This document shows positions 28,293 through 44,194 of a stretch of 64,000 bases of DNA, piece after piece (the first letter of the stretch is position 1; every line of letters begins with the position of its first letter). The DNA comes from an uncultured Bacteroidia bacterium (GTDB lineage Bacteria > Bacteroidota > Bacteroidia > Bacteroidales > Prolixibacteraceae): NCBI GenBank assembly GCA_903897145.1, contig CAIUAN010000040.1, positions 62,001 through 126,000 on the forward strand, read 5' to 3'. A model generated the notes under the pieces. It was not told the origin of the DNA and did not search any database. It saw nothing but the letters and a program-made list of their open reading frames with translations. The translations under genes and the position numbers were made by a program.

Positions 28293-28336
28293 GGAGCGTT
28301 TGTTTAAATAAAAAAGTATTTTAGAATAGAGGTGAT

Positions 28337-28771
28337 CTAATCTATTTTGGTATTTACCATCCAATACGAGAAGGTGTTGAGGTAGTCCCAGAATGATTTA
28401 ATCACCTCTTCTGGTAGGTCTAATTTAGATAAAACCTCGATATAGCACTCTAGCCAAACTTTTCGAGCATGTTCATCAATGGTAAATGGGGAATGACGGG
28501 CGGCTAACATTGGTCTTCCACGATTTTCGTTGTAGTAGGTATGTCCCCCGCAGATCTGAATAAAAAAGTCAGAAGAGCGTTGCTTGGCTTTTTCTAGTGC
28601 CTCGTCGATACGAGGGAAGAGATGCTTTACTTCGCTCTGGCTCAATAGGTCGTAATGATCACTGACGAGTTTTCTGATACCCTCTTCGTGAAGCAGGGCC
28701 AGAAAATCTTGAGTAGGGATTGTCACCGGAGGCCGTTGTCCAAATTCGTAGTGATTGATAGTAAAGTCCAT
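28337..28771 (-). CDS. Truncated haemoglobin (group II-like)
   Basis: This 144-residue truncated globin most resembles group II: the haem-proximal histidine lies in AARHSPFTID, preceded by GGHTYYNENRGRPML, and the group II tryptophan (G8) is in ARKVWLECY. These globins bind O2 or NO and are linked to respiration or nitrosative stress protection. No export signal is present. It is followed upstream on the same strand by a Tat-type exported protein gene 15 bases away. Confidence 0.85.
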   Translation of the reverse strand: MDFTINHYEFGQRPPVTIPTQDFLALLHEEGIRKLVSDHYDLLSQSEVKHLFPRIDEALEKAKQRSSDFFIQICGGHTYYNENRGRPMLAARHSPFTIDEHARKVWLECYIEVLSKLDLPEEVIKSFWDYLNTFSYWMVNTKID

Positions 28772-28786
28772 AATGTTTGGAGATGC

Positions 28787-29143
28787 TTAGATCTCCATTG
28801 TCATTCGTTCAGAGGCGATCATATAATATCGGGCAAATTTCTCGTCGTTCATATAATCATGAAGTTGAGTCTGCCATTTTTTAGCGCGCTCTGATAGTTG
28901 TACAATCTTTGTGTTGTTGGCAACATTCTCTGGATCCACTTTTTGCGTTTTTATGACTTCAATAAATTCGTCCATCCATTTTTCATAATGGGTCATAAAA
29001 GCTTTCTGATCCGGAGTAATGTTCATATCCTCTATCGATTCTTTAATATTCGCAGAGATCAGTGAGTTCGCCGTTAAAGTTGCACCAAGCGTAAACCCTA
29101 GTTTGCGTAAGAAACCTCTTCTTTTATCTTCGTAACCGTCCAT
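28787..29143 (-). CDS. Small twin-arginine exported hypothetical protein
   Basis: This 118-residue protein begins with a twin-arginine-type leader (DKRRGFLRKLGFTLGATLTANSLISA), indicating export of a folded protein, perhaps one holding a cofactor. The mature part is mainly helical and charged (EKWMDEFIEVIKTQK; ERAKKWQTQLHDYM), with no cysteine pair or obvious metal motif. I do not recognise a named family. It lies between the globin gene (15 bases after its stop) and the DUF6483-like gene (31 bases before its start). Confidence 0.65.
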   Translation of the reverse strand: MDGYEDKRRGFLRKLGFTLGATLTANSLISANIKESIEDMNITPDQKAFMTHYEKWMDEFIEVIKTQKVDPENVANNTKIVQLSERAKKWQTQLHDYMNDEKFARYYMIASERMTMEI

Positions 29144-29174
29144 AATTGTGATGATGTTTATTTAATGATAACAA

Positions 29175-29609
29175 TTAGCTCAATTTTTTGTTTGCGTTTA
29201 AATCCGCTACTTTTTTGCGAATTACTGATATGCGCTCTTCTCGTTTTTCTGACCATGTTCGGTCTTCTTTTTCAAGAAACTCGAGTAAAACTAACGATTT
29301 TTCATAGCATTTACTAGCTCTTTCTGGTTTTATTTGGGCGTCACAAAGCTCGCCTTCCGCAAAAAATAGTTCAGCTAAAACACTTAAGTGGCCATGCTGA
29401 TAGTGGTGTTCTTTGATAAGACCTGTTGTGAGCTTTTCATTCGATAAAGAGTGAAAAAATGCAGCATCTTTTCTCAAGAAATCCATGTATCCTCTTTCCA
29501 GAATTTTTTCGGCTTGCTCCAGATCCCCTTTTTTTAGTAGTCCTAGAATCATTGCAATTAATTCGCCAATCATCTCTACCATCCGAAGGATATAATCTTT
29601 CTGAAACAT
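29175..29609 (-). CDS. DUF6483-like helical protein
   Basis: This 144-residue cytoplasmic protein is nearly all helical and resembles DUF6483, a small family of unknown function. The N-terminus DYILRMVEMIGELIAMILGLLKKGDLEQAEKIL is typical. The rest reads like TPR-style helices (AELFFAEGELCDAQIKPERASKCYEKSLVLLEFLE). It is the first gene of a three-gene run with the Tat-type protein and the globin. Role unknown. Confidence 0.65.
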   Translation of the reverse strand: MFQKDYILRMVEMIGELIAMILGLLKKGDLEQAEKILERGYMDFLRKDAAFFHSLSNEKLTTGLIKEHHYQHGHLSVLAELFFAEGELCDAQIKPERASKCYEKSLVLLEFLEKEDRTWSEKREERISVIRKKVADLNANKKLS

Positions 29610-29806
29610 CTGATAACTCCGTTCAATTCGGATTCAAAATTACTACAATTCTGCCAAAGGAAAGCGCTGATGATCGATATTTCTTTTGATCGATCTTAGA
29701 TTGACTATTTTTTAACCTAATTATCTTATTTACAATCTTATTTCGCTCTAATTTTAAATAATTGAACCATTAAGGATCAAGAAAAAGTAGCTCGTATACC
29801 TGTATA

Positions 29807-29839
29807 GAAAAAAAAACGCTCCTCTTTTTAGGGAGGAGC
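29807..29839 (-). terminator. Hairpin terminator after the SusD remnant
   Basis: GCTCCTC (29818-29824) pairs with GAGGAGC (29833-29839); on the minus strand the stem is followed by a run of at least nine T. It lies 23 bases beyond the stop of the SusD 3' remnant and is what remains of that operon's end. Confidence 0.6.
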
Positions 29840-29862
29840 ATTTAATATTTGAATGTGGTCTA

Positions 29863-30040
29863 TTATTTACCTCCAGAGTAGCCTGGGTTTTGTTTAATTG
29901 ATCCACCGCTATTGTCGATTTCTGTTTGGAGAATTGGCATTACTCGGTGTACAGCTGGAACAAAGGTACGCTTTGGCTTGTAGTTGCCTTCAGCTGGAGC
30001 TGCATTGTAAATCCAAGCATTCACTTTTATAAATTGATTT
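29863..30040 (-). pseudogene. 3' remnant of a SusD/RagB gene
   Basis: Reading the minus strand, about 55 codons end with the typical C-terminus of SusD lipoproteins: KRTFVPAVHRVMPILQTEID, then SGGSIKQNPGYSGGK and a stop at 29863. This is not the C-terminus of the complete SusD gene at 31214-32785, so it belonged to a second SusCD-type locus. Its 5' part is missing; homology fades near 30040, just before the RAYT gene. The trailing terminator is retained. Confidence 0.7.
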
Positions 30041-30142
30041 TTAATTTTGGAATTCCGTATATTTAATGATTATGAAATCAGTTAACATAGCTTCGTCTTG
30101 CAAGGATATATAAACTGATTATAACATAATGTAAATTTTTAC

Positions 30143-30694
30143 ATGTCATCTGAAAATTACACCATCCAGGATCAGAATGCCCTTTACTTCCTGACTTTTA
30201 CCATTACTGAATGGGTGGATATTTTTACCAGAAGCTGTTATAAAGTTATTATCGTTGATTCATTAAATTATTGCATTGAAAATAAGGGCATGGTTGTTTA
30301 TGCGTGGTGTCTCATGTCAAACCATTTACACCTGGTAGCTAAGGCTAATGACGGTTTTCGGATGAGCGATATAATTAGGGATTTTAAAAAGTTTACAGCG
30401 AAAAAAGTAATTTTATCTATTAATCAAGAAAATGAAAGTAGAAAAGATTGGCTTCTTTACCGTTTCTCTTATGCCGGTAAGTTTGATAATCGGATTAAAA
30501 ACTATAAGGTATGGCAAGAAACGAGTCATCCTATACTTTTAGACACAAATTATTTGATAGAACAGAAGATCAACTATATCCATCAAAATCCCGTAAGAGC
30601 ATTGATTGTGCAAAATCCAGAAGATTATGTTTTTAGCTCTGCTTCTGATTATGCTGGGACAAAAGGAATTGTATTAGTTGACTGCGAAATCTGA
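30143..30694 (+). CDS. REP-associated tyrosine transposase (RAYT, Y1_Tnp)
   Basis: This 183-residue protein is an HUH-type Y1 transposase of the RAYT group, single-strand nucleases that move or maintain REP palindromes. The HUH motif is HLH in LMSNHLHLVAK (near residues 60-64). The C-terminal YIHQNPVRALIVQNPEDYVFSSASDY is highly typical of RAYTs. The frame is intact and of normal length. It is immediately followed by an array of REP-like palindromes with related cores. It interrupts an eroded polysaccharide-utilisation locus. Confidence 0.88.
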   Translation: MSSENYTIQDQNALYFLTFTITEWVDIFTRSCYKVIIVDSLNYCIENKGMVVYAWCLMSNHLHLVAKANDGFRMSDIIRDFKKFTAKKVILSINQENESRKDWLLYRFSYAGKFDNRIKNYKVWQETSHPILLDTNYLIEQKINYIHQNPVRALIVQNPEDYVFSSASDYAGTKGIVLVDCEI

Positions 30695-30695
30695 A

Positions 30696-30938
30696 TTTAT
30701 CCCACTCGTTTGCAACGAGGGGGATAAACATCGCAACTCAAGACCATTAACTACTTATTCCTCTCATTTCAAATGAGTGTATAATATTTTTTTCTAACGA
30801 TAGCTCCCCCTCGTTTGCAACGAGGGGTAAGTGGTTTGTCGTTTCAAACGATGTTAACTTCTAAATAAAAATCACCTAATTTAGGATTAAAAGGAGTTGC
30901 AAACTCAACACCATTCACCCCTCGTTGCAAACGAGGGG
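30696..30938. repeat. Array of REP-like palindromes linked to the RAYT
   Basis: Five palindromes occur in 243 bases. (1) 30696-30728: TTTATCCC, mismatch, CTCGTT, loop TGC, AACGAG, GGGATAAA. (2) 30763-30777: CTCATTT-C-AAATGAG. (3) 30807-30827: CCCCTCGTT, loop TGC, AACGAGGGG. (4) 30839-30851: TCGTTT-C-AAACGA. (5) 30918-30938: CCCCTCGTT, loop GCA, AACGAGGGG, i.e. copy 3 in inverted orientation. Units 3 and 5 flank a spacer of about 90 bases, resembling the paired BIME arrangement of enterobacterial REPs. Confidence 0.8.
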
Positions 30939-30946
30939 TATAGGAG

Positions 30947-31036
30947 AGTTTTTGCCAATTGGTCAAATTTCTGTGCGAAAACAGTGATAAAAGTGAAGAG
31001 AACCACAATTGCTAAAACGAGTTTTTTCATTACCAT
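30947..31036 (-). pseudogene. 5' remnant of a secreted glycosidase gene, probably GH27
   Basis: From an ATG at 31036 (or 31030) the minus strand encodes a complete Sec leader MKKLVLAIVVLFTFITVFAQ and then KFDQLAKT. In many Bacteroidota GH27 alpha-galactosidases this point is followed by PPMGWNSWN; here the frame runs directly into a REP palindrome and stops after 13 codons (TGA). About 30 codons survive. The gene is downstream of, and on the same strand as, SusCD. The GH27 assignment rests on only eight mature residues plus position and is tentative; that the gene is truncated is clear. Confidence 0.5.
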
Positions 31037-31121
31037 AGTTTTTTTTAAGATTGGGAATTAGATCAAGTCTATGCATAGTAGTTGGAATTCAGGTATATTT
31101 TATTGAAAACTTCAACCTCAG

Positions 31122-31164
31122 AAAAAAAGCGCTCCCCCTCAGTCAGTTTGCCTGGGAAGAGCGC
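31122..31164 (-). terminator. Hairpin terminator after susD
   Basis: GCGCTC (31129-31134) pairs with GAGCGC (31159-31164), extended by partly paired CCC/GGG; on the minus strand a run of seven T follows (31122-31128). It lies 50 bases after the susD stop and separates SusCD from the truncated glycosidase gene. Confidence 0.6.
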
Positions 31165-31213
31165 AATTTACTTTTTAAAATTTATTTATTTTGGGTTTGT
31201 CAACGATTTCTGA

Positions 31214-32785
31214 TTACCAACCTGCATTTTGCTTGTAGGCGCCGTTGCTAAGGGCGATTTCTTGCGGGTTAATTGGCCATACAAGATTTTTAGGCGCTGT
31301 AAAATGGCGGGCCGGCCAAACTTCCTGAATCGTGTATGGTGAACTAGGATTGGTTTTATCGGCATGAATCCGACCATGCAATGGTTGATTGATTTTGTCA
31401 TAGTCTCCCCAACGTTTCAGGTCCATATAACGGTCGCTCCATTCAATTGCAAGTTCAACACGGCGTTCATGTTTTAGATCAGCCATTGTTGGCGCTGCGA
31501 TAGAAGGCAATCCAGCACGGTTTCTTACCAGATTTAGCGGAGCTGCTGCGGCAGCATTCTGATTCATCTGAATTAAAGCTTCGGCCTTTAAAAGAAGTAT
31601 CTCGGCATAGCGCATAAGCGGGAAATTCAGGTAGGTAAACGGATAATTTCCATCATGACCGATAAACATATCGGAACCTGCAGTTCCAGTTCCGTAACTG
31701 TAAGGTTCCATAAATTTATTTTGCTGAAATCCTGTTGGACTATTCGTTGACCAATACTGCCTGGCGACACCGAAATAGGTGAATGTATCCCCAAATTTCA
31801 GGATAGTTGCTTCTCTGCGCGGATCTCCCGGCTCATATTCTTCATACAGCTCTTCAGTCGGTTGGCAATATCCCCAACCATTGAATTGTCCCCAACCCTG
31901 GTTTTCGAGACTAATTCCTGGAAATTCAGAACCTCCATTTGGTCCGGCGTTCACTGCCCAGATATATTCTGAAGACCAATTGTTCGGAATAGTGAATACC
32001 GACTTGTAGTCTGGAAGGAGTGAACGACCTCCAACATTGGTGATTGAATCGCACAATGCAGGTATTAGGGCCCATTTGGTATTGTCATACTGTGCCCAGT
32101 AAGTATAGGTTTTTGCCATATAGGCCCAGGCTGCAGCTTTATGTGCGCGACCGTAATCGGACGGACTGTATGACTGGAAGATAGGTAGCAGATTTGCAGC
32201 TTTTTGTAAGTCTGATATAATTTGTTTGTAGTTATCAATCACAGAAGGAAGCTGTGGAGGGACTCTTTTCTGATACAGCGGATTTTCAGGTCCATCGAAT
32301 GGGACGCCCTGATCTTTACTTCCCCAAATGTAAGCCAACCAGAAATGGTCAAATCCACGCATAAAATAGGCTTCACCTTTAGCCCGATTTTTCAGGTCAG
32401 ATGAAACAGTGGCCTGATCAATACCCGCGATAACCCAGTTGGCACTTGCCATCGCTGAGTAAAGAAATTGCCATGGTGTAGAGCTGTAATAACCGCTTCC
32501 GTTTCCTTGAGGCTGTAGATTCTTTAAAGCTACTGCTTCGCCATCATCATTACGACCTACAACCACATCGTCTGAAACAGATCCTTGCATAAAGAAAATA
32601 TTCTGTCCAAAAGTCTGCTCACTACTCATGTTTGCATACATGGCATTAGTCGCCCTGTTGATATCATCCGGAGTATGCCAAAAGAAGGCAGTAGTTGGAT
32701 TTCCCAAAGGTTTTACGTCAACAAAGTTCTTTGAACAGGACGTAACCAGGATTAGGGAGAGTAAGATGAAATATATCTTTTTCAT
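31214..32785 (-). CDS. SusD/RagB-family glycan-binding lipoprotein
   Basis: This 523-residue surface lipoprotein is the glycan- or nutrient-binding partner of SusC. Its leader ends in a lipobox-like VTSCSKN (lipid Cys near residue 17). The SusD fold is visible in TPDDINRATNAMYANM, AKGEAYFMRGFDHFWLAYIWG and the C-terminal RYAEILLLKAEALIQMNQ followed by LVRNRAGLP and the ending GAYKQNAGW. It lies 18 bases after susC and downstream of the iol operon. The neighbours suggest an inositol-containing ligand, but nothing in the sequence proves this. Confidence 0.93.
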   Translation of the reverse strand: MKKIYFILLSLILVTSCSKNFVDVKPLGNPTTAFFWHTPDDINRATNAMYANMSSEQTFGQNIFFMQGSVSDDVVVGRNDDGEAVALKNLQPQGNGSGYYSSTPWQFLYSAMASANWVIAGIDQATVSSDLKNRAKGEAYFMRGFDHFWLAYIWGSKDQGVPFDGPENPLYQKRVPPQLPSVIDNYKQIISDLQKAANLLPIFQSYSPSDYGRAHKAAAWAYMAKTYTYWAQYDNTKWALIPALCDSITNVGGRSLLPDYKSVFTIPNNWSSEYIWAVNAGPNGGSEFPGISLENQGWGQFNGWGYCQPTEELYEEYEPGDPRREATILKFGDTFTYFGVARQYWSTNSPTGFQQNKFMEPYSYGTGTAGSDMFIGHDGNYPFTYLNFPLMRYAEILLLKAEALIQMNQNAAAAAPLNLVRNRAGLPSIAAPTMADLKHERRVELAIEWSDRYMDLKRWGDYDKINQPLHGRIHADKTNPSSPYTIQEVWPARHFTAPKNLVWPINPQEIALSNGAYKQNAGW

Positions 32786-32803: not shown

Positions 32804-35800
32804 TTAAAAACTAACTTTTGCCCCAAGTGAAAGGGTTCTGGAAACGGGATATGTCCCGGCATCAAGTCCATGATTACTAACTTCAGGGTCCATGCCAGAG
32901 TACTTTGTGAAAGTTAAGAGATTTTCACCACTTACGTAAAGTCTTATTTGGCTACCCAGTATTTTTTTGTCCAGGGTATATCCAATCTGAAGATTTTTCA
33001 AACGTAGATAATCGCCGGATTCAAGATAGTAATCTGAGTTTGTTGTGAAGTTCTGATTCGTATCATTAACTGTCAGACGTGGAATTGTTGAATTGACATT
33101 GGTAGGAGACCATGCGTCAAGTATTTTATTCCAATGGTTGTATCCTGGTGTAGCTGCATTAAGCGTAGTTTCTTTCCATGCGTTAAATATTTTAACACCG
33201 CCTACTCCTTGAAAGAAAGCGTTGACATCCCAATTTTTCCATCTTGCGCCCAAAGAAAAACCGTAGGTAAGAGTAGGATTGTAAGAACCCATGTACTGTC
33301 TGTCATTAGCGTCAATAACCCCATCACCATTTTTATCAACAAACTTCAAGTCGCCTGCTACAGCATTGGGTTGGATACGGTTTCCATTTTTATCCACATA
33401 AGCAGCGGCTTCCTGGTTCGATTTAAATATTCCGTCTGTTTTGATCAACCAGTAAGAATAGTATGGTGTTCCGACTGCCGATCTGAATGGTATTAAGACA
33501 CCGGTCCTGTAGTTATCTCCGAAATTATAAGTAACGGTTGGATCAGAGCTTATAAAGGCGACTCTGTTTTTTAAAGTTGCAAAGTTTCCACCTAAATCAA
33601 TCTCGACCTCACCAATTTTTTGTGTCCATTTTGCAGAAAACTCAAATCCCTCGTTATTGATAGTACCCTGATTGATAAGCGGTGCCCCAACACCTGTAGA
33701 CTGAGTCCAACCCGTATCCTGTGGTTTGATCAGGTTAAAGGTGCTTTTCCAGAAATAATCCAGTGTGACATTTAGTCTTTTTTTGAATAAAGTTATGTCT
33801 GCACCTACGTCAGTTTGTCTGGAAGTTTCCCAGCTAAGATTTGGATTATAGGCGTTACCAATATAGGCAGTAGAACCCAAAGGTCCATTTATACCAACCT
33901 GATTAGCGCCTCCCTGAGATAATACCGGATAACCGTAACCTAAACCGATCGAACTAAGGTTCCCGATTTCTCCCCAGCTTGCACGAACTTTCAGAAGATT
34001 AATCAGAGATGATTTAAACCAGGGCTCGGAGGAAATTTTCCAGGCACCTGTTACTCCGGGGAATAATTTTGAACGATTGCCGGGAGCTAATCTTCCTGCT
34101 ATATCATTACGGTAACTTCCGGTCACAAAATAGCGGTCAGCATAACTGTAGGCAATACGGCCAATATAAGATACGTTCTTGTCCTCCCATTTATAATCTC
34201 CAGGGTGTGATTGGTCGAATATTGTTGCCTGGCCGAAAAATTGTGCCCATATTGCTTCAGAAGAGAAGCCCAAAGCACTCGCTGACATTCCCATACCTAG
34301 GTCATCTCTCGCCGTGGTTGAGATCATTGCGCTAATATTATGTCTGTCAAAAGTCCGGGTGTAATTAAGTGTATTTTCCAATAACCAGTTACGATTATAG
34401 CCTGCATTTTCGGAAAGACTATTTTGATCATATGGTTTCCCTGGTTCAGGTCGCCTTGGCGAAAAGAATTTGTTATAATTAGTTCCAAGACGGTATGAGA
34501 ATCTTGAAGTGAATTCTAGTCCTTTTACAATATTGGAAATACCCATTTCTGAGGTAGCCATGATGTCGCTGTTTCTCGAAAAGCCTTGATTTCTTAAAAG
34601 TGATGCTACCGGATTTACAATATCACCATAGGCTCCGAGATAAATGGAGCTGGGATCACCAGTACCGCCGAATGTTCCGTCAGGATTATAAATAGTAGCA
34701 TTACGCGGCATATAGATGGCCGAGATAATTGTACCATCGTAACCATTATTGGTTGAGGTTCCGCGACCTTCACTATTGTTCCAGAAGATAGATTCTTTGA
34801 ACTTCAGATATTTATTGACGGTATAAATAGCATTATACCGTGCAGATACATTTTTGTTGTATGTGTTCAAAAGCGTTCCTTCTTCATCTTCAGTGCGAAC
34901 CTGGAATAATGAAGAAAGTTTATCAGTACCCCCCGATAACGTAACAGTATGTCTTTGAACAGTTGCTGTACGGAAGATCGATTTAATCCAGTCTGTCCGT
35001 GTGATCTGGCCTGATGGGTTCTGAGCAGGATCCCATGCCGCGAGTCCTTGTTGCCCTGCATTTGCCCATGCCTGATTGGATACTTGTCCCTGCTGAGCAG
35101 CTGTTAATGATTCCGGTACTCTCCAGGCATTCTTGACTCCGTAAAATCCACTATAGTCAATTGATGTTTTACCAGCTTTAGCCTGACGGGTAGTAATAAG
35201 AATAACTCCGGCAGATCCGGCACTTGCACCATAAATTGCAGCTGACGCAGCATCCTTAAGTACGGTTATAGATTCTACATCCTGAGGATTAAAAGGGGCA
35301 CCTGGAACTCCGTCTACAACGTAAAGAACTGCTTCAGTGGCTGATCCGGTGCCGCGGATTGTCACTGACGGCCCAGCGGTTGGATCTCCACCATTATTCG
35401 TAATAGTTACACCTGGTATCCGACCCTGAATCATTGATTCCAGGTTAAAGGTGGGTGACTCCTTCAGCTGATCCATATTCTGGATAACAGAAACAGATGC
35501 CGAAAGGTCTTCCTTTTTGGTCGTACCATAACCAATTACAACAACATCATCAAGTTTCTTAATGTCTTCTGCAAGAACGACATTCACAACTTTTTGATTG
35601 GCTGCTTGCTGAACCGTGTTGTACCCAACAAATGAAAATAGTAAAGACGCTTTAGTATCTGGGACATCAAGGCTGTAATTACCTTCCATGTCAGTTACGG
35701 TTCCAGTTGTTGTCCCTTTTACAACGACAGTTACTCCTGGGACTGCTCCTCCTTTTACGTCGGTTACCTTTCCGGTTACTTTCACCGGCGCAGCATTAGC

Positions 35801-35920
35801 CGGGTTGCCTGAAGTATTCTGGCCTGCAAAAGCTCTTGCAGATACTCCGGGCGAGAACACAACTGCTCCTACAATAAGTAGTAGCATTGTCTGCTTTTTA
35901 AAAATTGATTTCCATTTCAT
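32804..35920 (-). CDS. SusC/RagA-family TonB-linked outer-membrane transporter
   Basis: This 1038-residue outer-membrane channel imports oligosaccharides or other bulky nutrients with SusD as its lid. A leader (to about residue 32) is followed by a CarboxypepD_reg domain (VTGKVTDVKGGAVPGVTVVVKG, then GNYSLDVP and LLFSFVGYN), then the SusC-specific LDDVVVIGYGTTKKEDLSASVS, a plug with ITIRGTGS-like motif (VTIRGTGSATEAVLYVVDGVPG) and a barrel ending SRTLSLGAKVSF. It starts 104 bases after iolG, and no TAnnTTTG box is visible in that gap, so read-through from the iol operon is plausible. Confidence 0.94.
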   Translation of the reverse strand: MKWKSIFKKQTMLLLIVGAVVFSPGVSARAFAGQNTSGNPANAAPVKVTGKVTDVKGGAVPGVTVVVKGTTTGTVTDMEGNYSLDVPDTKASLLFSFVGYNTVQQAANQKVVNVVLAEDIKKLDDVVVIGYGTTKKEDLSASVSVIQNMDQLKESPTFNLESMIQGRIPGVTITNNGGDPTAGPSVTIRGTGSATEAVLYVVDGVPGAPFNPQDVESITVLKDAASAAIYGASAGSAGVILITTRQAKAGKTSIDYSGFYGVKNAWRVPESLTAAQQGQVSNQAWANAGQQGLAAWDPAQNPSGQITRTDWIKSIFRTATVQRHTVTLSGGTDKLSSLFQVRTEDEEGTLLNTYNKNVSARYNAIYTVNKYLKFKESIFWNNSEGRGTSTNNGYDGTIISAIYMPRNATIYNPDGTFGGTGDPSSIYLGAYGDIVNPVASLLRNQGFSRNSDIMATSEMGISNIVKGLEFTSRFSYRLGTNYNKFFSPRRPEPGKPYDQNSLSENAGYNRNWLLENTLNYTRTFDRHNISAMISTTARDDLGMGMSASALGFSSEAIWAQFFGQATIFDQSHPGDYKWEDKNVSYIGRIAYSYADRYFVTGSYRNDIAGRLAPGNRSKLFPGVTGAWKISSEPWFKSSLINLLKVRASWGEIGNLSSIGLGYGYPVLSQGGANQVGINGPLGSTAYIGNAYNPNLSWETSRQTDVGADITLFKKRLNVTLDYFWKSTFNLIKPQDTGWTQSTGVGAPLINQGTINNEGFEFSAKWTQKIGEVEIDLGGNFATLKNRVAFISSDPTVTYNFGDNYRTGVLIPFRSAVGTPYYSYWLIKTDGIFKSNQEAAAYVDKNGNRIQPNAVAGDLKFVDKNGDGVIDANDRQYMGSYNPTLTYGFSLGARWKNWDVNAFFQGVGGVKIFNAWKETTLNAATPGYNHWNKILDAWSPTNVNSTIPRLTVNDTNQNFTTNSDYYLESGDYLRLKNLQIGYTLDKKILGSQIRLYVSGENLLTFTKYSGMDPEVSNHGLDAGTYPVSRTLSLGAKVSF

Positions 35921-36024: not shown

Positions 36025-37038
36025 TTACAATATTTCACTGAGTTTTACCGCGCGTTTTTCCAAGTACGATTTTTTCGCTGCTAATGCAATTGCAACTGAT
36101 TGAAGTCCATCAATTCCAGAAACTGGCAAGGATAAATCATTCACTACCGAATCACAAAAGATTTTCATCTCCATGGCGTAAGCCTCGAGATAACGCTCCA
36201 TAAAAAAGTTTAGTGGTAACGATCCATGAACGCCATCTGCACCAAAGAAGCGATGATTTTCGGGGTAGTTATTATCGGCATTAGCCATTCCCTTTGATCC
36301 GAAAATCTCAACCCGTTGGTCATATCCATAGACAGCCTTCCGACTATTGTCAATAACCCCAAGAGCACCATTGGCAAAAGTTAGCGTGATAATGGCGGTA
36401 TCAACATCACCTGCTTTACCGATCTCCGGATCAACTAAAACAGCTGCATTTGTATAGACTTCGGTTACTTCACTTCCCACAATATAACGGGCCATATCGA
36501 AATCATGAATGGTCATATCCATAAACATACCCCCAGAGACTGCACTGTATTCTGCTGGTGGCGGTGCAGGATCCCGGGAGGTTATTTTAAGAATATGAGG
36601 GACGCCAATCTTGCCTGCTTCTACCAATTGTTTGATCTTTAGGAAATTTGGATCAAAACGTCGATTAAAGCCGACCATCAACTTCACTCCAGCTTTTGCA
36701 ACTGCCTCTAAGGCCCCTTGAATAACTTCTAGCGACAGATCAATAGGCTTCTCACAAAAGATATGCTTCCCTGCCTTGGCTATTTCGACGATGTATTGAG
36801 CATGAGTATCTGTTGGAGAACAGATCACCACGGCCTCTACCTCAGGATGATTAATCACCTCTTGATAGTCTGCAAATACTGTTGAGATGCCAAATGTTGC
36901 AGCAACTTCTTGAGCCGCTTTTAAATCAATGTCGGCTACCGCGACTACTTCAGCCTGCGCTACACTTTGGACTAGTGTCGCAATATGGACTTTGCCTATC
37001 CTGCCGGTTCCGATGACTCCAAGTTTTAATTTCTTCAT
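36025..37038 (-). CDS. iolG: Inositol 2-dehydrogenase
   Basis: IolG oxidises myo-inositol to 2-keto-myo-inositol (scyllo-inosose) with NAD, the first step of the pathway. The Rossmann motif is GVIGTGRIGKVHIATL (residues 8-23). The catalytic Lys region is CEKPIDLS, and the Asp/His pair lies in MDMTIHDFDMARY, both as in the Gfo/Idh/MocA inositol dehydrogenase branch. It is 337 residues, normal length. It is the last iol gene, 32 bases after iolE. Confidence 0.92.
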   Translation of the reverse strand: MKKLKLGVIGTGRIGKVHIATLVQSVAQAEVVAVADIDLKAAQEVAATFGISTVFADYQEVINHPEVEAVVICSPTDTHAQYIVEIAKAGKHIFCEKPIDLSLEVIQGALEAVAKAGVKLMVGFNRRFDPNFLKIKQLVEAGKIGVPHILKITSRDPAPPPAEYSAVSGGMFMDMTIHDFDMARYIVGSEVTEVYTNAAVLVDPEIGKAGDVDTAIITLTFANGALGVIDNSRKAVYGYDQRVEIFGSKGMANADNNYPENHRFFGADGVHGSLPLNFFMERYLEAYAMEMKIFCDSVVNDLSLPVSGIDGLQSVAIALAAKKSYLEKRAVKLSEIL

Positions 37039-37070
37039 GCGTACTATTAATTTTTTGTCACTATGGATAG

Positions 37071-37970
37071 TTAGAATCCAAGTGAATGAATAAAATCTCT
37101 ATTTTGTTTTGCACATGCTTTGGGATTTCCCATGCCTGGAAGTACGTCTTGCTCAACTACGATCCATCCTGAATAATTTTGTTTTGATAACTCTTCAACG
37201 ATTGCCGGGAAATCAACTCCACCTTTACCTAATTCGCAGAACACCCCGTGGCCGACAGATTGGAAATAATCCCATCCTTCGGCTTTTGATTGTGCGGCAA
37301 TTTGAGGGTGGCAATCTTTAAAATGGATATGCCAGATTCGACTTTTATGTTTCTTTAAGGCCTCTAAGGGATCACCGCCTCCGAAGAGATAATGCCCCAT
37401 ATCGAGCACCAGTCCAACTAATTCAGGATCTGTAAGTGCTAAAAGCTGATCAACCTCTTGCGCTGTTTCTACATATCCAGCGCAATGATGATGAAAAACG
37501 GTCCTTAGTCCAGTTTTCTCTTTCACTTCGCGCGCAACTAGGTTTGCTCCGGCTGCAAAGGTCTGCCATTCTAACTCCGATAAACCAAGATCAGGTGTAA
37601 CTCTTCCAGCATTTAAGGTTCGTTCTTTTACACTCCCATTATCGTCGGCAAGGACAATAAAGGCATTCGTATAACCGGCATCAACCATCAGTTTAGCAGT
37701 CTTAATGGCTAACTCAGCCCCTGCTTCATGCTTCGCTGAGTCTTTAAGAAAAACGGGCACAAAGGCGCCTACCATATCCAGCTTCCGCTGATTAAGTGCT
37801 TGATTTAATTCTTTTGGTATTGAAGGCATAAATCCCCAATCTCCTAGTTCGCTACCTTCATAACCAGTCTCTTGGATCTCATTTAGAACTTGCTCATATC
37901 CGGCCGCTTGACCTGAGAGATCAAATTCTAATACTCCCCAAGAGCATGGTGCATTTGCAATTTTTATCAT
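37071..37970 (-). CDS. iolE: Inosose dehydratase-like TIM-barrel protein
   Basis: This 299-residue xylose-isomerase-like TIM barrel fits IolE (2-keto-myo-inositol dehydratase), the second step. N-terminal NAPCSWGVLEF is characteristic. Metal-binding residues expected for the fold are visible: Glu near LSELEWQT, Asp/His in VLDMGHYLFGG, His in HIHFKDCHP and Glu in IVVEQDVLPG. It could instead be an IolI-type isomerase of the same fold, but its place in a complete pathway without another candidate supports IolE. Confidence 0.87.
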   Translation of the reverse strand: MIKIANAPCSWGVLEFDLSGQAAGYEQVLNEIQETGYEGSELGDWGFMPSIPKELNQALNQRKLDMVGAFVPVFLKDSAKHEAGAELAIKTAKLMVDAGYTNAFIVLADDNGSVKERTLNAGRVTPDLGLSELEWQTFAAGANLVAREVKEKTGLRTVFHHHCAGYVETAQEVDQLLALTDPELVGLVLDMGHYLFGGGDPLEALKKHKSRIWHIHFKDCHPQIAAQSKAEGWDYFQSVGHGVFCELGKGGVDFPAIVEELSKQNYSGWIVVEQDVLPGMGNPKACAKQNRDFIHSLGF

Positions 37971-38001
37971 TTTATATAATTAGGCTAATCGATTTAGTTA
38001 T

Positions 38002-39474
38002 TTAGAATTTTCGAGACCATTCATCATTCCATCGCTCAATCACCACTTTTGTTTGAGTATAAAACTCAACAGCATGTGATGATTGACCATGTAAATCACC
38101 GAAGAAGCTCTCTTTCCATCCACTGAATGGGAAGAAGGCCATTGGTGCAGCCACCCCTATATTGACTCCAATATTTCCAGCCAAGGTGTTATGCCTAAAC
38201 TTGCGAGCAGCAGCGCCACTTCGAGTGAAGATGCAAGCAGAATTTCCGTAACGGTTTCTGTTAATGAGCGCAATCGCCTCCTCAAGAGTTTTCACATGGA
38301 TCATGCTGAGCACAGGTCCGAAGATCTCCGTTTTATAGACTTCACTATGTTCTCCTACATTGCCAAGTATGGTTGGACCGATGAAATTCCCATTTTCATG
38401 TCCTGATACTTTTATGCCTCTTCCATCAAGCAAAAGATCAGCTCCCTGATCGATCCCTAGCTGAATTAGCTTCTCAATGCGGATTTTACTCTCAGCGCTA
38501 ATTACCGGACCCATATCGGCCGAAGCGTCCATTCCGTCACCTGTTTTCTTTGATTTTGCGAGGGTAATAATTTTGTCAGTTAGCTTTTGGGCACCTTCGC
38601 CTACGGTAATCACAACTGAAGCGGCAAGACAGCGTTGTCCGGCGCATCCAAATGCGCTATCTACAATGATCTTTACAGTGGTCTCTTCATCTGCATCTGG
38701 CATAACCACCACTGCATTTTTTGCTCCGCCTTGTGCTTGAACTCTTTTCCCATTTAGCGTTCCTGTTTGATAAACATGCTTCGCAACAGGCGTTGATCCT
38801 ACAAAGCTAATGGCAGGAATAAACGGATGCTCCAGAATAGCATCAACGGTTTCTTTCCCACCATGCACCATGTTGAGCACTCCTTTGGGGAGGTTGAGCG
38901 TCTCGATGAGTTCGAAAATTCGGGTCATAGTCATCGGAACTTTCTCAGATGGCTTAACGATATAGGTATTCCCACAGGCTATGGCATAAGGCATAAACCA
39001 GAATGGAATCATAATAGGAAAATTAAAAGGAGAGATACAAGCTCCTACGCCCAGCGGCTGACGAATCACAAATTCATCCACCCCAGTAGCAATATCTTCC
39101 GAAAAAACACTTTGCATTAAGGTGGGAATACCACATGCCACTTCGATATTCTCCACCGCACGGGTCATCTCCGCCTTCGATTCTGCAAATGTCTTGCCGC
39201 ACTCTTGGGTGCAAATCGCAGCAATCTCGTCCGTGTGTGCTTCTAACAGTGCCTTCATCTTAAAAAGATACTGAACGCGCTGTGTAGCAGGTGTATTTCT
39301 CCAGCTTTCCCAAGCCTGATGGGCAGATTCGGCCGCATCCAAAACATCCTCTTTGCATCCCACAGATACTCTACCTACTGGTAGTCCAGTGGAGGGATTA
39401 ATTACATCAAGCAATGAATTATTTTTGCTCTTAACCCATTCGCCGTTGATATAATTTTTTAATGTAGTCGACAT
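38002..39474 (-). CDS. iolA: Methylmalonate/malonate-semialdehyde dehydrogenase (CoA-acylating)
   Basis: This 490-residue aldehyde dehydrogenase converts malonate semialdehyde to acetyl-CoA and CO2, the final step. The catalytic Cys is in GCAGQRCLAAS (about residue 285), and PFNFPIMIPFWFMPYAIACGN is the MmsA-type cofactor loop. In place of the catalytic Glu of ordinary aldehyde dehydrogenases it has QGGAKNAVVVMPDA, a feature of the CoA-dependent branch. It lies between iolD (4 bases upstream) and iolE. Confidence 0.93.
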   Translation of the reverse strand: MSTTLKNYINGEWVKSKNNSLLDVINPSTGLPVGRVSVGCKEDVLDAAESAHQAWESWRNTPATQRVQYLFKMKALLEAHTDEIAAICTQECGKTFAESKAEMTRAVENIEVACGIPTLMQSVFSEDIATGVDEFVIRQPLGVGACISPFNFPIMIPFWFMPYAIACGNTYIVKPSEKVPMTMTRIFELIETLNLPKGVLNMVHGGKETVDAILEHPFIPAISFVGSTPVAKHVYQTGTLNGKRVQAQGGAKNAVVVMPDADEETTVKIIVDSAFGCAGQRCLAASVVITVGEGAQKLTDKIITLAKSKKTGDGMDASADMGPVISAESKIRIEKLIQLGIDQGADLLLDGRGIKVSGHENGNFIGPTILGNVGEHSEVYKTEIFGPVLSMIHVKTLEEAIALINRNRYGNSACIFTRSGAAARKFRHNTLAGNIGVNIGVAAPMAFFPFSGWKESFFGDLHGQSSHAVEFYTQTKVVIERWNDEWSRKF

Positions 39475-39478
39475 AATA

Positions 39479-41338
39479 TTATAAATAATAACGTTGTTTC
39501 TTTTTCTTCTCTTCGTAATTGATACGTGCCTTTTTTACAGACTCTATTTCTGAGACTTCGGCGATTGGCACTTCCCACCAAGCATAGCCTGGAACCCCTT
39601 TTGTAAGACTTGTTTCAATAGTTATTACGGTTGTCTTTTGTTGCTTCTTCGCCTCTATAAGAGCGGATTTGAGTGTTGGGATATCATGGCTTTCAATGAC
39701 ATGAGCACCCAGACTGCGTGCATTCTGAGCAAAATCAACTGGAAGAATATTGCCGCTTAAAAGACCAGTTTTAGGATCTCGATAACGGTAGTTGGTTCCA
39801 AAACGCTCTGAACCTATTGATTCGGATAAGCCTCCTATACTTGCAAACCCATTGTTGTTCAGTAGAATAATAGTAAACTTAATTCCTTCTTGAATAGCTG
39901 TGACAATCTCGTTGTTCATCATCAGGTAGTTGCCATCCCCAACCATTACATAGATCTCACGGTCTGGACAAGCCATTTTAACTCCGATTCCTGCCGCAAT
40001 TTCATATCCCATTGTGGAGTAGCCATATTCGAGATGAAAACCTTTTGGATCGCGTGTTCTCCATAATTTATGCAGATCGCCGGGTAAACTTCCTGCAGCG
40101 CAGATCACTACATCGCGTGGTTCTGAAAAATCATTAACCACACCAACGACCTCGGTCTGAGCCACCGGAAGATTTCCTGTGACTTTATAAAATTCAGTGA
40201 CTTGCAGATCCCATGCCTGTCCCAAATCGGCAATATGATTTCTATAATCAGCTGAGACCTGATAATTAGATAATAGTTCAAGCAATTCCTCAAGAGTTGA
40301 TCTTGCATCTCCTGTAAGTGGCAGCCCACTATGTTTGGCTGAATCAAATTCAGCAATATTGATATTGATAAATTTTACATTCGGATTTTGAAAAGCAGAT
40401 TTTGAGGCAGTGGTAAAATCGCTATAACGAGTTCCAACACCAATAACAAGATCGGCAAGAGCTGTAATTTTGTTGGCTCCGGGTGTTCCTGTTACACCTA
40501 CAGCACCCAGATTAGAGGGGTGATCGAACGAGATAGAGCCTTTACCTGCAAAAGTCTCTGCCACAGGGATTCCTGTTTCTTCAATAAGTTCCCGTAAGAT
40601 ATCGGATGCTTCACTGTAAATGACTCCTCCTCCAGCTATCAGGATTGGATTTTTCGACGATTTAATCAATGCTGCAGCCTCTTTTAAGACCCTTATGTCG
40701 GGACGTGGACGTGCGATTTTCCACACTCTCTTGCGAAATAGTTCTTCAGGAAAGTCAAATGCTTCGGCTTGCACATCCTGAGGCAGGCATAGCGTTACAG
40801 CTCCTGTTTCAGATGGAGAGGTAAGCACGCGCATCACTTCGGGCAAGGAGGTTATTAATTGTTCTGCACGGTTAATGCGGTCCCAATATTTTGAAACTGG
40901 TTTAAAACAATCGTTAACAGATATGTCTTGCGTTGATTGTGATTCGAGTTGTTGTAATACTGGAGCGACATCCCGACGAGCAAAGATATCACCGGGGATA
41001 ATCAGTACGGGCAGTCTATTTATGGTAGCGCAGGCAGCACCTGTAAGCATATTGGTTGCCCCAGGACCAATCGATGAGATACAAGCAAAAGTCCCCATCC
41101 GATTTTTCATCTTCGCATAGGCCATTGCAATATGCACTGACGATTGTTCGTTTCGGGTCATGATGTAGGGGAAATCGGTATTTTGGGTTAATCCCTGTCC
41201 TATCCCAGCAATATTGCCATGGCCGAAAATTCCTACGCAACCTGCGAAAAATGGATTTTCAACTCCATCACGTTCCACAAATTGATTTTTAAGGAACTTC
41301 ACTACTGCCTGTCCGACTGTTAATCGTTCTGTTTTCAT
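39479..41338 (-). CDS. iolD: 3D-(3,5/4)-trihydroxycyclohexane-1,2-dione hydrolase
   Basis: IolD is a thiamine-diphosphate enzyme that opens the cyclohexane-dione ring to 5-deoxy-glucuronate. At 619 residues it fits the family. The ThDP-activating Glu lies in RNEQSSVHIAMAYAK, and the Mg/ThDP motif is GDGNYLMMNNEIVTAIQ followed by ILLNNNGFASIGGLSES. LKNQFVERDGVENPFFAGCVGIFGHGN at the N-terminus is typical of IolD rather than acetolactate synthase. It begins 18 bases after iolC. Confidence 0.95.
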   Translation of the reverse strand: MKTERLTVGQAVVKFLKNQFVERDGVENPFFAGCVGIFGHGNIAGIGQGLTQNTDFPYIMTRNEQSSVHIAMAYAKMKNRMGTFACISSIGPGATNMLTGAACATINRLPVLIIPGDIFARRDVAPVLQQLESQSTQDISVNDCFKPVSKYWDRINRAEQLITSLPEVMRVLTSPSETGAVTLCLPQDVQAEAFDFPEELFRKRVWKIARPRPDIRVLKEAAALIKSSKNPILIAGGGVIYSEASDILRELIEETGIPVAETFAGKGSISFDHPSNLGAVGVTGTPGANKITALADLVIGVGTRYSDFTTASKSAFQNPNVKFININIAEFDSAKHSGLPLTGDARSTLEELLELLSNYQVSADYRNHIADLGQAWDLQVTEFYKVTGNLPVAQTEVVGVVNDFSEPRDVVICAAGSLPGDLHKLWRTRDPKGFHLEYGYSTMGYEIAAGIGVKMACPDREIYVMVGDGNYLMMNNEIVTAIQEGIKFTIILLNNNGFASIGGLSESIGSERFGTNYRYRDPKTGLLSGNILPVDFAQNARSLGAHVIESHDIPTLKSALIEAKKQQKTTVITIETSLTKGVPGYAWWEVPIAEVSEIESVKKARINYEEKKKKQRYYL

Positions 41339-41356
41339 TTTGTAACCTTATAATAT

Positions 41357-42370
41357 TTAAAATCCGCCATGCTTTTCGATAAATGCAAAAGCCTCCTCGA
41401 GCGTAGGATTGAAATTAGAACATCCAGGTTTGGTAACTAAGATAGCGCCGCATGCATTCCCCATTCGGCAGCTTTTATACCAATCCCATCCTTTGAGATA
41501 ACCATAAATAAATCCACTTGCAAAGGCATCCCCAGCTCCAAGAACATTCATAACCTCTACTGGGAAGCCAGGAACATCAATCACCTCGCCACTTTTCAGG
41601 AATACCGTTGATCCTTTAGCACCTCGCTTTACAATTAAAGCTTCAACGCCTAATGCCCTAATTTTTGCTATGGCAACATCCACATTGCCTCGAATCTCAG
41701 GAGCGGACATTTGTTGATTTGTAATCTTAATCTGATCAGGGTCGCTTAACATCGTCGCTAGAATTTCCTCTTCAGTTCCCAATGCAATGGTACAGTATTG
41801 AAGGTAAGCTCGTGTAGTTACCCCGAAGGAGCGTGGATCGTGCCATTGATCTGCCCGAAAGTCAAGATCTATCAGAATAGGAACATTATTTTTTACCGCT
41901 TCTTCGGCAGCAAAGAACCCTGCCGACCGTGAGGGCTCGACATTAAGTGCGGTAGCAGAAATCTCAAATAGGCGAGAATCGCCAATATTTGCTGCAATTA
42001 CATCATCAATATTAACCTTTGAATCTGCGCAATTTTCACGGTAATAAACTAAAGGAAAATTGTCGGGTGGTTGAATTCCTAACACTACAGCGCTAGTTCT
42101 GAAGCCCGGTTTGCGCTGAATGAATTTCGTTTCAACGCCTTCTTTAGTTAAAAAGTTCAACAGAAAATCTCCGATCTGATCTTGTCCGATACCTGTTAAC
42201 AAAGCAGAGCGAAGTCCTAATCGTTTTGTTCCCACAGCCATGTTAAGCGGCGATCCGCCAACATAGGCGTTAAACGATTGAATATCGACAAAGTCGGCAC
42301 CGATATTCGCCGAGTAAAGGTCGATAGATGACCGGCCATAGGTTATTACATCGTACGATTTCTCAGCCAT
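41357..42370 (-). CDS. iolC: 5-dehydro-2-deoxygluconokinase
   Basis: This 337-residue PfkB-family sugar kinase phosphorylates 5-dehydro-2-deoxygluconate. N-terminal YGRSSIDLYSANIGADF is characteristic of IolC, GGSPLNMAVGTKRLGL is the first PfkB motif, and NVLGAGDAFASGFIYGYL is the anion-hole/catalytic Asp motif. The gene overlaps iolB by 8 bases, so the two are translationally coupled. Confidence 0.95.
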   Translation of the reverse strand: MAEKSYDVITYGRSSIDLYSANIGADFVDIQSFNAYVGGSPLNMAVGTKRLGLRSALLTGIGQDQIGDFLLNFLTKEGVETKFIQRKPGFRTSAVVLGIQPPDNFPLVYYRENCADSKVNIDDVIAANIGDSRLFEISATALNVEPSRSAGFFAAEEAVKNNVPILIDLDFRADQWHDPRSFGVTTRAYLQYCTIALGTEEEILATMLSDPDQIKITNQQMSAPEIRGNVDVAIAKIRALGVEALIVKRGAKGSTVFLKSGEVIDVPGFPVEVMNVLGAGDAFASGFIYGYLKGWDWYKSCRMGNACGAILVTKPGCSNFNPTLEEAFAFIEKHGGF

Positions 42371-43265
42371 GATCTTCAGGTGTTATTTGCTTTGTTACCA
42401 TAGGAATACGAGGATCCATCCCTTTCCAGGTGCCATAGATCCATTTATGATCAGGATCATCTGTGCTGGCCAAACTTTGATCGCTTCCTGCTAGAAAATT
42501 AAGATAATAGACATTGTATCCATGCCCTGCTACCACTGGATGATACCCTTTGGGGATTAAAACTACATCGTTATGATGCGCTTCAGCAATCTCGTCTAGG
42601 GTACGATCACTGGTGTATATTCTTTGCATGGCAAAGCCTTGGGGTTTATCTATTTTATAAAAATAAATTTCCTCTAATTTTGCTTCTAAAAGGTCTCCTG
42701 AATTGGGGTCAACTTTTCGCTCGTCGTGCTTATGGGCTGGGAACGAACTCCAATTTCCGGATGGAGTATATACCTCGACACACACTAATTTATGACAAGC
42801 TGATCCTGGAGGCAGCAGTCTGTTGATCTGTCGGCTTGCATTGTCACCACCTCGATGTTCAATGCCCATCTTTTCAACCTCATCTGGTGTGATAAATGAG
42901 GCAGGATGGTGTTGGTCTGACACAACCCAACTACAAGCAATATCTAGTAATTCGCTCTCCGCTGTTACGGCGAATGCGGTGTTTGGAGGCAGGTATAGTC
43001 CATGCGGAAAGCCGCTAAATACATCTTTTCTGCCGTTCACCGTCTGCCATGTTTGGGAATCGGTCTGTGCAGTAAAATTACCACCTAATAAAACGATTAA
43101 AAGTTCGTGATTTCCGGTGTTATGAGTCCATTGCTCTCCCTTATTCATAAGACGAGCTTCGAAATTTAAATATTCCCATCCGGCCTCAGAACTTGAAAAG
43201 TTTTGATAGACAGAGCTTTCCAAAGAGGGCTTTACGATTAACGGGCATTTAAGGTCTCTTTGCAT
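42363..43265 (-). CDS. iolB: 5-deoxy-glucuronate isomerase
   Basis: IolB, a bicupin KduI-like isomerase, converts 5-deoxy-glucuronate to 5-dehydro-2-deoxygluconate. Metal-binding residues appear in WSSFPAHKHDERKVDP and in LDEIAEAHHNDVVLIPKGYHPV. GYNVYYLNFLAGSD and the C-terminal WIYGTWKGMDPRIPMV are typical of IolB. At 300 residues it is slightly longer than many homologues. It starts 2 bases after iolJ. Confidence 0.94.
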   Translation of the reverse strand: MQRDLKCPLIVKPSLESSVYQNFSSSEAGWEYLNFEARLMNKGEQWTHNTGNHELLIVLLGGNFTAQTDSQTWQTVNGRKDVFSGFPHGLYLPPNTAFAVTAESELLDIACSWVVSDQHHPASFITPDEVEKMGIEHRGGDNASRQINRLLPPGSACHKLVCVEVYTPSGNWSSFPAHKHDERKVDPNSGDLLEAKLEEIYFYKIDKPQGFAMQRIYTSDRTLDEIAEAHHNDVVLIPKGYHPVVAGHGYNVYYLNFLAGSDQSLASTDDPDHKWIYGTWKGMDPRIPMVTKQITPEDHG

Positions 43266-43267
43266 CT

Positions 43268-44194
43268 CTAATTTTGATTAGCTGATTTCAAAAAAGTACA
43301 TTTTTGAGCTACAAAATCCTCAAGGGCACTCATATATAATTTCCCTGGCACAACCATGTCGAATAATTCGGGAGAGTTGCGAAAAAACTCTCGATGAATA
43401 CGGGTCCAGATAAGACGCATATCGGTGGCAATATTTACTTTGCAAATACCATATGATATCGCTTCAAGCAGTTCTGAGGCATCAGCCCCTTTTGCATCCT
43501 CCTTTAATTCGCCCCCGGCAAGATTAATTCTTCTTACTTCTTCTAAAGGTACAGCAGAGGCCCCATGAAGAACCAAGGGAAAGTGAGGAAGTAAGCTTTG
43601 TATTTCTTTTATAATCGCTAGTTGCAAGCCTTGTCCTCCAGAGAATTTATACGCGCCATGACTTGTTCCTACAGCTATCGCTAAACTATCGCATCCGCTG
43701 CGTCGAACAAATTCCTGAGCTTGTTGAGGATTGGTATACCGGGCATGCTTTTCGTCAATTGAGATGTCATCTTCAATCCCACTTAAGATCCCCAATTCAG
43801 CTTCTACTGCAATCCCCTTGCGATGAGCCATGTCTGAGACCTCGCGAGTAATCCGTATATTTTCTTCATACACCTCGTGTGAGGCATCAATCATTATTGA
43901 ATTGTAATTCCCCGACTCAATCGCTCTCATGCAATGATTATAGTTGCCATGATCCAGATGCACCGTGTAGCTAACATCGGGATAAATATTTTGTGCTGCG
44001 TTTAAGATCCCTTCGAGCATCGCTGGATTCATGTAGTCGCGTGCAACGGGTGTCAATTGTATAATAATGGGTGATTTCACCTTAGAAGCTCCTCGGAATA
44101 CACCATGCACCTGTTCAGCATTGAAGACATTAAATGCTCCGATGCCATAATTTCCATAGGCTTGTTGGTATAATTCTTGTATTGGAACCCTCAT
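43268..44194 (-). CDS. iolJ: Class II aldolase, DKGP aldolase
   Basis: This 308-residue class II (zinc) aldolase cleaves 6-phospho-5-dehydro-2-deoxygluconate to dihydroxyacetone phosphate and malonate semialdehyde. Zinc ligands and catalytic residues lie in VHLDHGNYNHC, GILSGIEDD and the phosphate-binding AVGTSHGAYKF and LHGASAVP. Its place as first gene of the iol operon supports IolJ; a fructose-bisphosphate aldolase cannot be excluded from sequence alone. The start at 44194 lies 17 bases from the symporter relic. Confidence 0.88.
   Translation of the reverse strand: MRVPIQELYQQAYGNYGIGAFNVFNAEQVHGVFRGASKVKSPIIIQLTPVARDYMNPAMLEGILNAAQNIYPDVSYTVHLDHGNYNHCMRAIESGNYNSIMIDASHEVYEENIRITREVSDMAHRKGIAVEAELGILSGIEDDISIDEKHARYTNPQQAQEFVRRSGCDSLAIAVGTSHGAYKFSGGQGLQLAIIKEIQSLLPHFPLVLHGASAVPLEEVRRINLAGGELKEDAKGADASELLEAISYGICKVNIATDMRLIWTRIHREFFRNSPELFDMVVPGKLYMSALEDFVAQKCTFLKSANQN

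Follow-up and report, generated by a model that had tools for sequence, protein, structure and literature searches.

The window, a 64,000-nucleotide stretch of DNA, spans positions 62001-126000 of contig C40 of G000, a 2.8-Mb draft genome (69 contigs, 97% complete) that is itself among the 18 genomes of the genus that we searched. On the minus strand, in the direction of transcription, iol genes (36025-44194) are followed by an intact SusC (32804-35920), an intact SusD of type 1 (31214-32785) and the first 30 codons of a GH27 alpha-galactosidase (31036-30947). The order continues with a REP doublet (30938-30805), more REP sequence, a gene for a REP-associated tyrosine transposase (RAYT) on the plus strand (30143-30694), the 3' tail of a different type of SusD, SusD2 (30012-29863), a terminator-like hairpin and a conserved gene of 144 aa (29609-29175). 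An earlier note, made from the letters of this DNA, had seen a transposase and palindromes between two gene remnants, in agreement with the RAYT gene and the three REP palindromes described below. The 144-aa gene is the left anchor of the locus; it lies near a 118-aa gene and a globin gene in G004, G016, G005, G010, G011, G013 and G014. According to NCBIfam, the iol block upstream of the SusCD pair comprises iolG, iolE (scoring under the model cut-off), MMSDH/iolA, iolD, iolC, iolB and a class II aldolase. The intact SusD matches PF07980 (E 2e-35) and is 80% identical to its counterpart in G011 and 64% to that in G005; its nearest entry in the named collection is an uncultured Bacteroidia assembly (80%), followed by Dyadobacter species (61–63%) among others.

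The SusD2 remnant consists of the last 49 codons and the stop. Its 49 residues are 65–88% identical to the C-termini of eight full SusD2 genes from seven relatives (G010 88%, G009 84%, G013 and G005 82%, G014 80% and 73%, G012 80%, G015 65%). The alignment starts at residue 449-450 of 497-498 in the SusD2 of G010 and G013, and since intact relatives have about 498 residues, the remnant represents the last tenth of the protein. Against PF07980 (SusD_RagB) it matches profile positions 257-297 of 297, the last 41 (E 0.0019), with a score under the Pfam cut-off for so short a query (18.3 vs 23.1 bits); the homology is therefore based on the alignment to full SusD2. The earlier note had identified a SusD 3' end here, which holds, and had extended it to 30040, which does not: SusD homology begins at about 30012, and the frame remains open to 30069 with the part above 30012 unlike SusD. 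There is an in-frame GTG at 30022-30024, four codons ahead of the homology, and we do not think that it makes a gene. Derivation of the tail from the intact SusD nearby was rejected, as reading of the alignment with the SusD2 ends places it clearly in the other type, in line with the difference that had been noted before. No intact SusD2 orthologue was found in the G000 genome, where the only paralogue, at 35%, is the intact SusD itself.

The tail differs from the G013 SusD2 at 9, 3 and 23 sites of codon positions 1, 2 and 3, over 150 bases only, and from the G005 SusD2 at 6, 7 and 28. This third-position excess resembles that between intact genes; because the tail keeps the codon-position bias, with little drift, the loss of SusD2 looks recent. 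On the 3' side of the remnant, a hairpin resembling an intrinsic terminator (29814-29843, minus strand; 11-pair stem and T tail) aligns with the region 3' of SusD2 in G013. Three terminator-like sites were found, against 1.2 expected in shuffles.

By reading, the 30 codons of GH27 comprise a signal peptide and the first residues of the enzyme. We searched this head against 19,108 six-frame segments of fetched loci, a set rich in GH27 loci. Its best match is the GH27 start of G011 with 46.4 bits, compared to at most 30.8 bits for 200 shuffled heads, and all non-self matches up to E 1 are GH27 starts; a Pfam search of the head gave no match. The suggestion of a secreted glycosidase 5' remnant at this position is thus confirmed, and a similarity search of both remnants, as had been advised, recovers SusD for the one and GH27 for the other. 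The GH27 homology ends at codon 30, within a few bases that fit both sides, beside a perfect REP palindrome; past this codon the frame enters the REP and meets a stop at 30905. The sharp junction described in the earlier note, with the glycosidase frame running into the palindrome, is therefore real. The intact GH27 homologue belongs to PF16499 (Melibiase_2, E 1.2e-81), and this domain starts at residue 28 of the G013 protein, so the catalytic domain is not retained in the 30-codon head. The shortness of the fragment counts against reading the region as a scar.

With the full GH27 protein as query, matches at E 0.001 were obtained in 16 of the 18 genomes, in all but G000 and G005. G000 does have another alpha-galactosidase candidate, a partial match to PF02065 (positions 69-261 of 347) in a frame of 688 aa; like matches occur in G004 and G016, and some PF02065 match in all 18 genomes. 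Separately, G015:C124:2869-3081 holds a 71-residue GH27-start piece with an internal stop, perhaps another broken copy. A REP-like palindrome with one mismatch lies directly 3' of the intact GH27 of G013 (G013:C13:104851-104867, L056) and could double as a terminator.

Both remnants are stop-free, the SusD tail has its in-frame GTG and the terminator after it is kept, which would fit short frames maintained for a function of their own, either as a short secreted peptide or as a 3' end or terminator used by the neighbours. We find this scarcely credible. The SusD piece is the last tenth of its protein only, and the GH27 piece stops short of the catalytic domain, which starts at residue 28 in G013, and runs into a palindrome. 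Conservation of the two short frames in sister strains, which had been proposed as the observation that would speak against a scar, is not seen: no relative read has either one as a gene at this site.

The RAYT gene has an intact frame of 183 aa that passes the NF047646 model (REP_Tyr_transpos; 93 bits, cut-off 80), and alignment with four relatives shows the catalytic motifs HuH and Y---NP, here NHLHLV and YIHQNP. It is 77–79% identical to the RAYTs of G001, G003 and G012. Matches at E 1e-10 or better are present in 7/18 genomes including G000, and absent at this threshold from G004 and G016. Among frames of at least 110 aa in four RAYT neighbourhoods of relatives, none matched a window protein except RAYT itself and one at 33% (near G003:C165), so that the RAYT of these neighbourhoods has no place in common with that of the window. 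By reading, the 5' side of RAYT genes in relatives bears a REP palindrome with a second, small hairpin, and the 3' side an arm that is unlike it. In the window, a REP palindrome and a degenerate 3' arm lie at 30700-30780 (by reading; direct-repeat family D1 and 3' flanks of RAYT relatives), and on the other side an A+T-rich stretch (30013-30142) separates the SusD2 break from the RAYT start and holds no 5' REP arm that can be recognised. We compared the sequence upstream of the window RAYT with that of six RAYT genes that keep their 5' end, all of which bear a REP palindrome there (by reading), and all six comparisons fell within shuffles; the comparison omits a seventh such gene (L127, minus strand), and in 8 of the 15 RAYT loci the alignment does not reach the first residues. 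REPs thus flank the gene on the 3' side only rather than on both. Judged by its sequence, the gene is a RAYT and the element is incomplete.

The three REP palindromes (30700-30722, 30805-30827 and 30916-30938) are the sole sites in G000 of the REP pattern with up to 2 mismatches, and a control pattern gave 0. On both strands there are 29 matches in G001, 32 in G003 and 23 in G012, vs 3 in G000; the many copies typical of REPINs are therefore not found here. On the other hand, the 134-nt doublet adjoining the GH27 break (30805-30938) is REPIN-like in having two inverted REPs in one hairpin: its arms (30807-30866 and 30879-30938) are inverted and 75% complementary, and the fold of 30803-30943 is far more stable than those of shuffles (z -8.6, 0/200). 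The doublet may have arisen from the RAYT element by internal deletion, as a non-autonomous derivative. Nine similar doublets were fetched, seven of which (G011, G001, G008 and G012) align over most of the length and two (G001 and G003) over the arms only. A search of 29600-31250 against Rfam at E up to 1 gave no match. It was also observed, by reading, that the REP doublets of the genus (30805-30938 and L138-L145) seem to have arms that differ from one another and match the two ends of RAYT elements.

SusD2 has eight orthologous loci in 7 of the 18 genomes (G013, G010, G009, G014 with two, G012, G005 and G015), with proteins 76–100% identical to that of G013. G000, G011 and G003 pass E 1e-40 with paralogues of 33–35% only, and nothing was found at this threshold in the other eight genomes. 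The iol genes are followed directly by SusC2-SusD2 at five of the eight loci (G013, G009, G010, G014 on C223, and G005); in G012 another pair lies between them, and the other two contigs start too late to tell. Directly after SusD2 comes GH27 at two of the eight loci (G013, with a 163 bp gap, and G009), GH36 at both G014 loci, one of which is cut by the contig end, and other genes in G005, G012 and G015, while the G010 contig ends. The full order in G013 is accordingly iol-SusC2-SusD2-GH27. Since relatives carry SusC2-SusD2 and GH27 in this neighbourhood and searches of G000 found neither an intact SusD2 nor an intact GH27, the earlier view that a second SusCD-type locus was probably once present stands, and a second SusCD and an alpha-galactosidase have probably been lost at this site.

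A single contig of G005 contains the globin, 118-aa and 144-aa genes, SusD2, SusC2 and iol in the order and orientation of the window, with other genes interspersed; the 144-aa gene and iol flank SusC2-SusD2 there, so the ancestral flank order is kept, and the SusCD1 pair is at the opposite end of the iol block. G011 shares the arrangement iol-SusC-SusD1 with the window, but other genes come next, beginning with a dnaX-like one (by reading), and the 800 bases spanning and following the end of SusD in this locus (L015) gave no trace of GH27; the GH27 of G011 lies 4 kb from the 144-aa gene, on a different contig from iol-SusC-SusD1. The earlier note had advised looking in sister strains for a full glycosidase and a second SusC/SusD between the remnants, and here the expectation failed: no relative read has these genes in the window's order. 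Within 28300-31220 of the window we found no convincing trace of SusC2, GH36, GH32, the amidase or a 446-aa neighbour. The amidase match there has E 0.17, and a GH32 match (E 7e-4) falls on the RAYT frame and was taken as chance.

The junction is found in one of the 18 genomes, G000, and the whole case for a scar comes from this one draft assembly. A REP repeat might have joined two unrelated contigs, given that the assembly has 69 contigs and that such REPs are repeated in other genomes of the genus. We consider an artefact of this kind very improbable, because the REP has no other location in G000, and because both flanks occur in the same order on one G005 contig, which a random join would not reproduce.

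The intact SusC beside the remnants is an apparent mosaic, a feature that is new here. We compared it in 50-residue blocks and built trees for residues 1-145 and 151-1038. Residues 1 to about 150 are nearest SusC2 and the remainder is nearest SusC1. In residues 1-50, identity to the SusC2 of G013, G009, G014 and G005 is 78–82% (59% for G012), vs 32–36% to the SusC1 proteins of the genus; from residue 151 the preference flips, with 34–36% to SusC2 vs 62–68% to SusC1 in residues 151-200. In the tree of residues 1-145, the SusCs of the window and G011 are close to SusC2, with a long branch to SusC1 (0.95), and the pairing of the two is weakly resolved (0.5). In the tree of residues 151-1038 they pair (1.0) and lie between the groups, much nearer SusC1 and Dyadobacter, and SusC2 is set apart by a long branch (1.0). 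The protein thus looks like a SusC2-like N-terminus on a SusC1-like barrel, and on this phylogenetic evidence the barrel is a sister type of SusC1 and not a copy of it. The mosaic suggests that SusCD genes at this site have been exchanged as well as lost. As the two-part SusC is common to the window and G011 (L015:6867-9983), it is probably older than the deletion.

Such a mosaic would also be left by a cassette replacement, in which a SusC1-SusD1-GH27 block recombined into an iol-SusC2-SusD2 locus, with one crossover in SusC at about codon 150 and a second, illegitimate one where the element sits, near codon 30 of GH27 and codon 450 of SusD2. This would account for the break at residue ~150, make the two fragments the expected leftovers on the far side and explain their reversed order without a tandem array. 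We judge it possible and rather unlikely. The same mosaic SusC-SusD1 lies beside iol in G011, and the exchange therefore seems to predate the SusD2 tail, which looks recent. Moreover, no donor block SusC1-SusD1-GH27 was found: no GH27 match adjoins the SusD1 genes of G002, G005, G009, G013 or G014, nor is there a GH27 match in the stretch annotated around SusD at any of the 17 named SusD loci.

We consider it fairly probable that a nutrient locus has shrunk here and that the region is its scar, formed from a tandem ancestor by an element in GH27 and a subsequent deletion. The ancestor beside iol would have had more than one SusC/SusD pair and a secreted GH27 alpha-galactosidase, at a site already reshaped by recombination between SusC copies. 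The RAYT/REP element with its doublet would then have come to lie in GH27 at codon 30; the junction is observed and the insertion inferred. A later deletion, from the other (5') edge of the element into SusD2 codon 449-450, would have taken out the remainder of GH27, SusC2, the greater part of SusD2 and, probably, the 5' REP of the element itself. Two dead gene fragments would remain, together with the transposase gene, whose frame is intact. For a presumed order SusC-SusD1-GH27-SusC2-SusD2, the loss would amount to at least 5.56 kb, which is the sum, from G013 gene lengths, of GH27 codons 31-391, the 1037 codons of SusC2, SusD2 codons 1-449 and one short gap, excluding the inter-unit spacer.

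The ancestral order matters for this proposal, since the remnants lie in the order GH27 then SusD2, the reverse of the sole intact order seen (SusD2 then GH27, in G013 and G009). A simple deletion from the G013 gene order was rejected, as it would put SusD2 on the other side of GH27; a single deletion consequently requires a tandem array. Such an array is known by analogy only, directly in G012 and by inference in G014. Tandem SusCD pairs after iol are seen directly in one relative, G012; G014 has two SusC2-SusD2-GH36 units on two contigs, each breaking inside a unit, from which we infer an array. The amidase or 144-aa side is separated from GH27 by further genes in G013 and G011, and these too would need to have been lost. 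As a separate observation, the extra SusC/SusD pair of G012 (L109, G012:C200:84246-88850) spans more than one frame, through either decay or sequence errors.

That the 5' REP is missing on the SusD2 side while a perfect palindrome stands on the GH27 side suggests that the insertion preceded the deletion. It is equally possible that the RAYT arrived after the deletion, and decay may account for its missing 5' arm. The earlier note had attributed the removal of several kb to deletion plus element insertion or recombination. The loss itself is probable; the element may or may not have been the cutter, and there may have been more than one deletion.

The small genomes of the genus (2.8–2.9 Mb) have few SusD matches: 3 in G000, 4 in G004 and 6 in G016, as opposed to 11–39 in the other 15. 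In G004 and G016 (L060, G004:C45, and L059, G016:C62), the 144-aa gene is followed directly by a homologue of the gene at 45531, and iol and SusCD are absent from the site. The three genes left of the break are 87–95% identical to those of the window, and the breakpoint differs from the window's. At E 1e-100, iolD has no match anywhere in G004 or G016 and is matched in 11/18 genomes.

Together with iol genes, the GH27 or GH36 enzymes suggest that the lost locus may have imported galactosyl-inositols such as galactinol. As in other SusC/SusD polysaccharide-utilisation loci of Bacteroidota, there is a SusC receptor, a SusD lipoprotein and, in relatives, a linked glycosidase. Unlike the usual loci, that of the window is linked to iol, and one pair is whole while the second is reduced to a tail of 49 codons. 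Small-genome bacteria undergo genome reduction by loss of whole loci, and the 2.8–2.9-Mb genomes with few SusD matches and parts of one block lost resemble this process; unlike in plain genome reduction, an element sits exactly at the window junction. In the SusC/SusD exchange systems (shufflons) of Bacteroides, a constant N-terminal part is joined to different barrels. The window SusC likewise has an N-terminal part on a different barrel, in this case as a fixed mosaic common to two genomes.

We also entertain, as a doubtful extension, that uptake cassettes are exchanged at the site beside iol. The promoter and the N-terminal domain of SusC would be constant and stay with iol, while SusC barrels, with their SusD and glycosidase, would be swapped by recombination in the conserved early SusC, and leftover copies would later be deleted, with the deletions anchored at RAYT/REP elements.

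The transposase itself, a Y1 enzyme with HuH and Y---NP beside palindromes, resembles the RAYT/TnpA-REP elements of PMC3116915 and PMC6006769, and the gene-free inverted doublets elsewhere in the genus resemble REPINs. PMC6006769 gives Y---NP as the class 2 signature, ascribes 'atypical secondary structures' to the mostly Bacteroidetes subclass 2.6, and indicates that the canonical GT[AG]G foot is not required for all RAYT subclasses. This foot is absent beside all three window palindromes (by reading), which, with the missing 5' REP and the presence of only one RAYT and three REPs in the genome, sets the element apart from canonical ones.

As a case of genome erosion the scar is clear and rather ordinary, and it exemplifies a known process well; more interest attaches to the two-part SusC at the same site. 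As a readable example, the scar illustrates how a small-genome Bacteroidota lineage may shed glycan use stepwise: uptake genes are exchanged, a selfish element arrives, a glycosidase and a second uptake pair are lost, and two close relatives lack the whole inositol block. If the element were shown to guide deletions, the locus would bear on the role of REP elements in shaping gene loss. The mosaic SusC, for its part, suggests that substrate range may be changed by swapping the barrel behind a fixed N-terminus.
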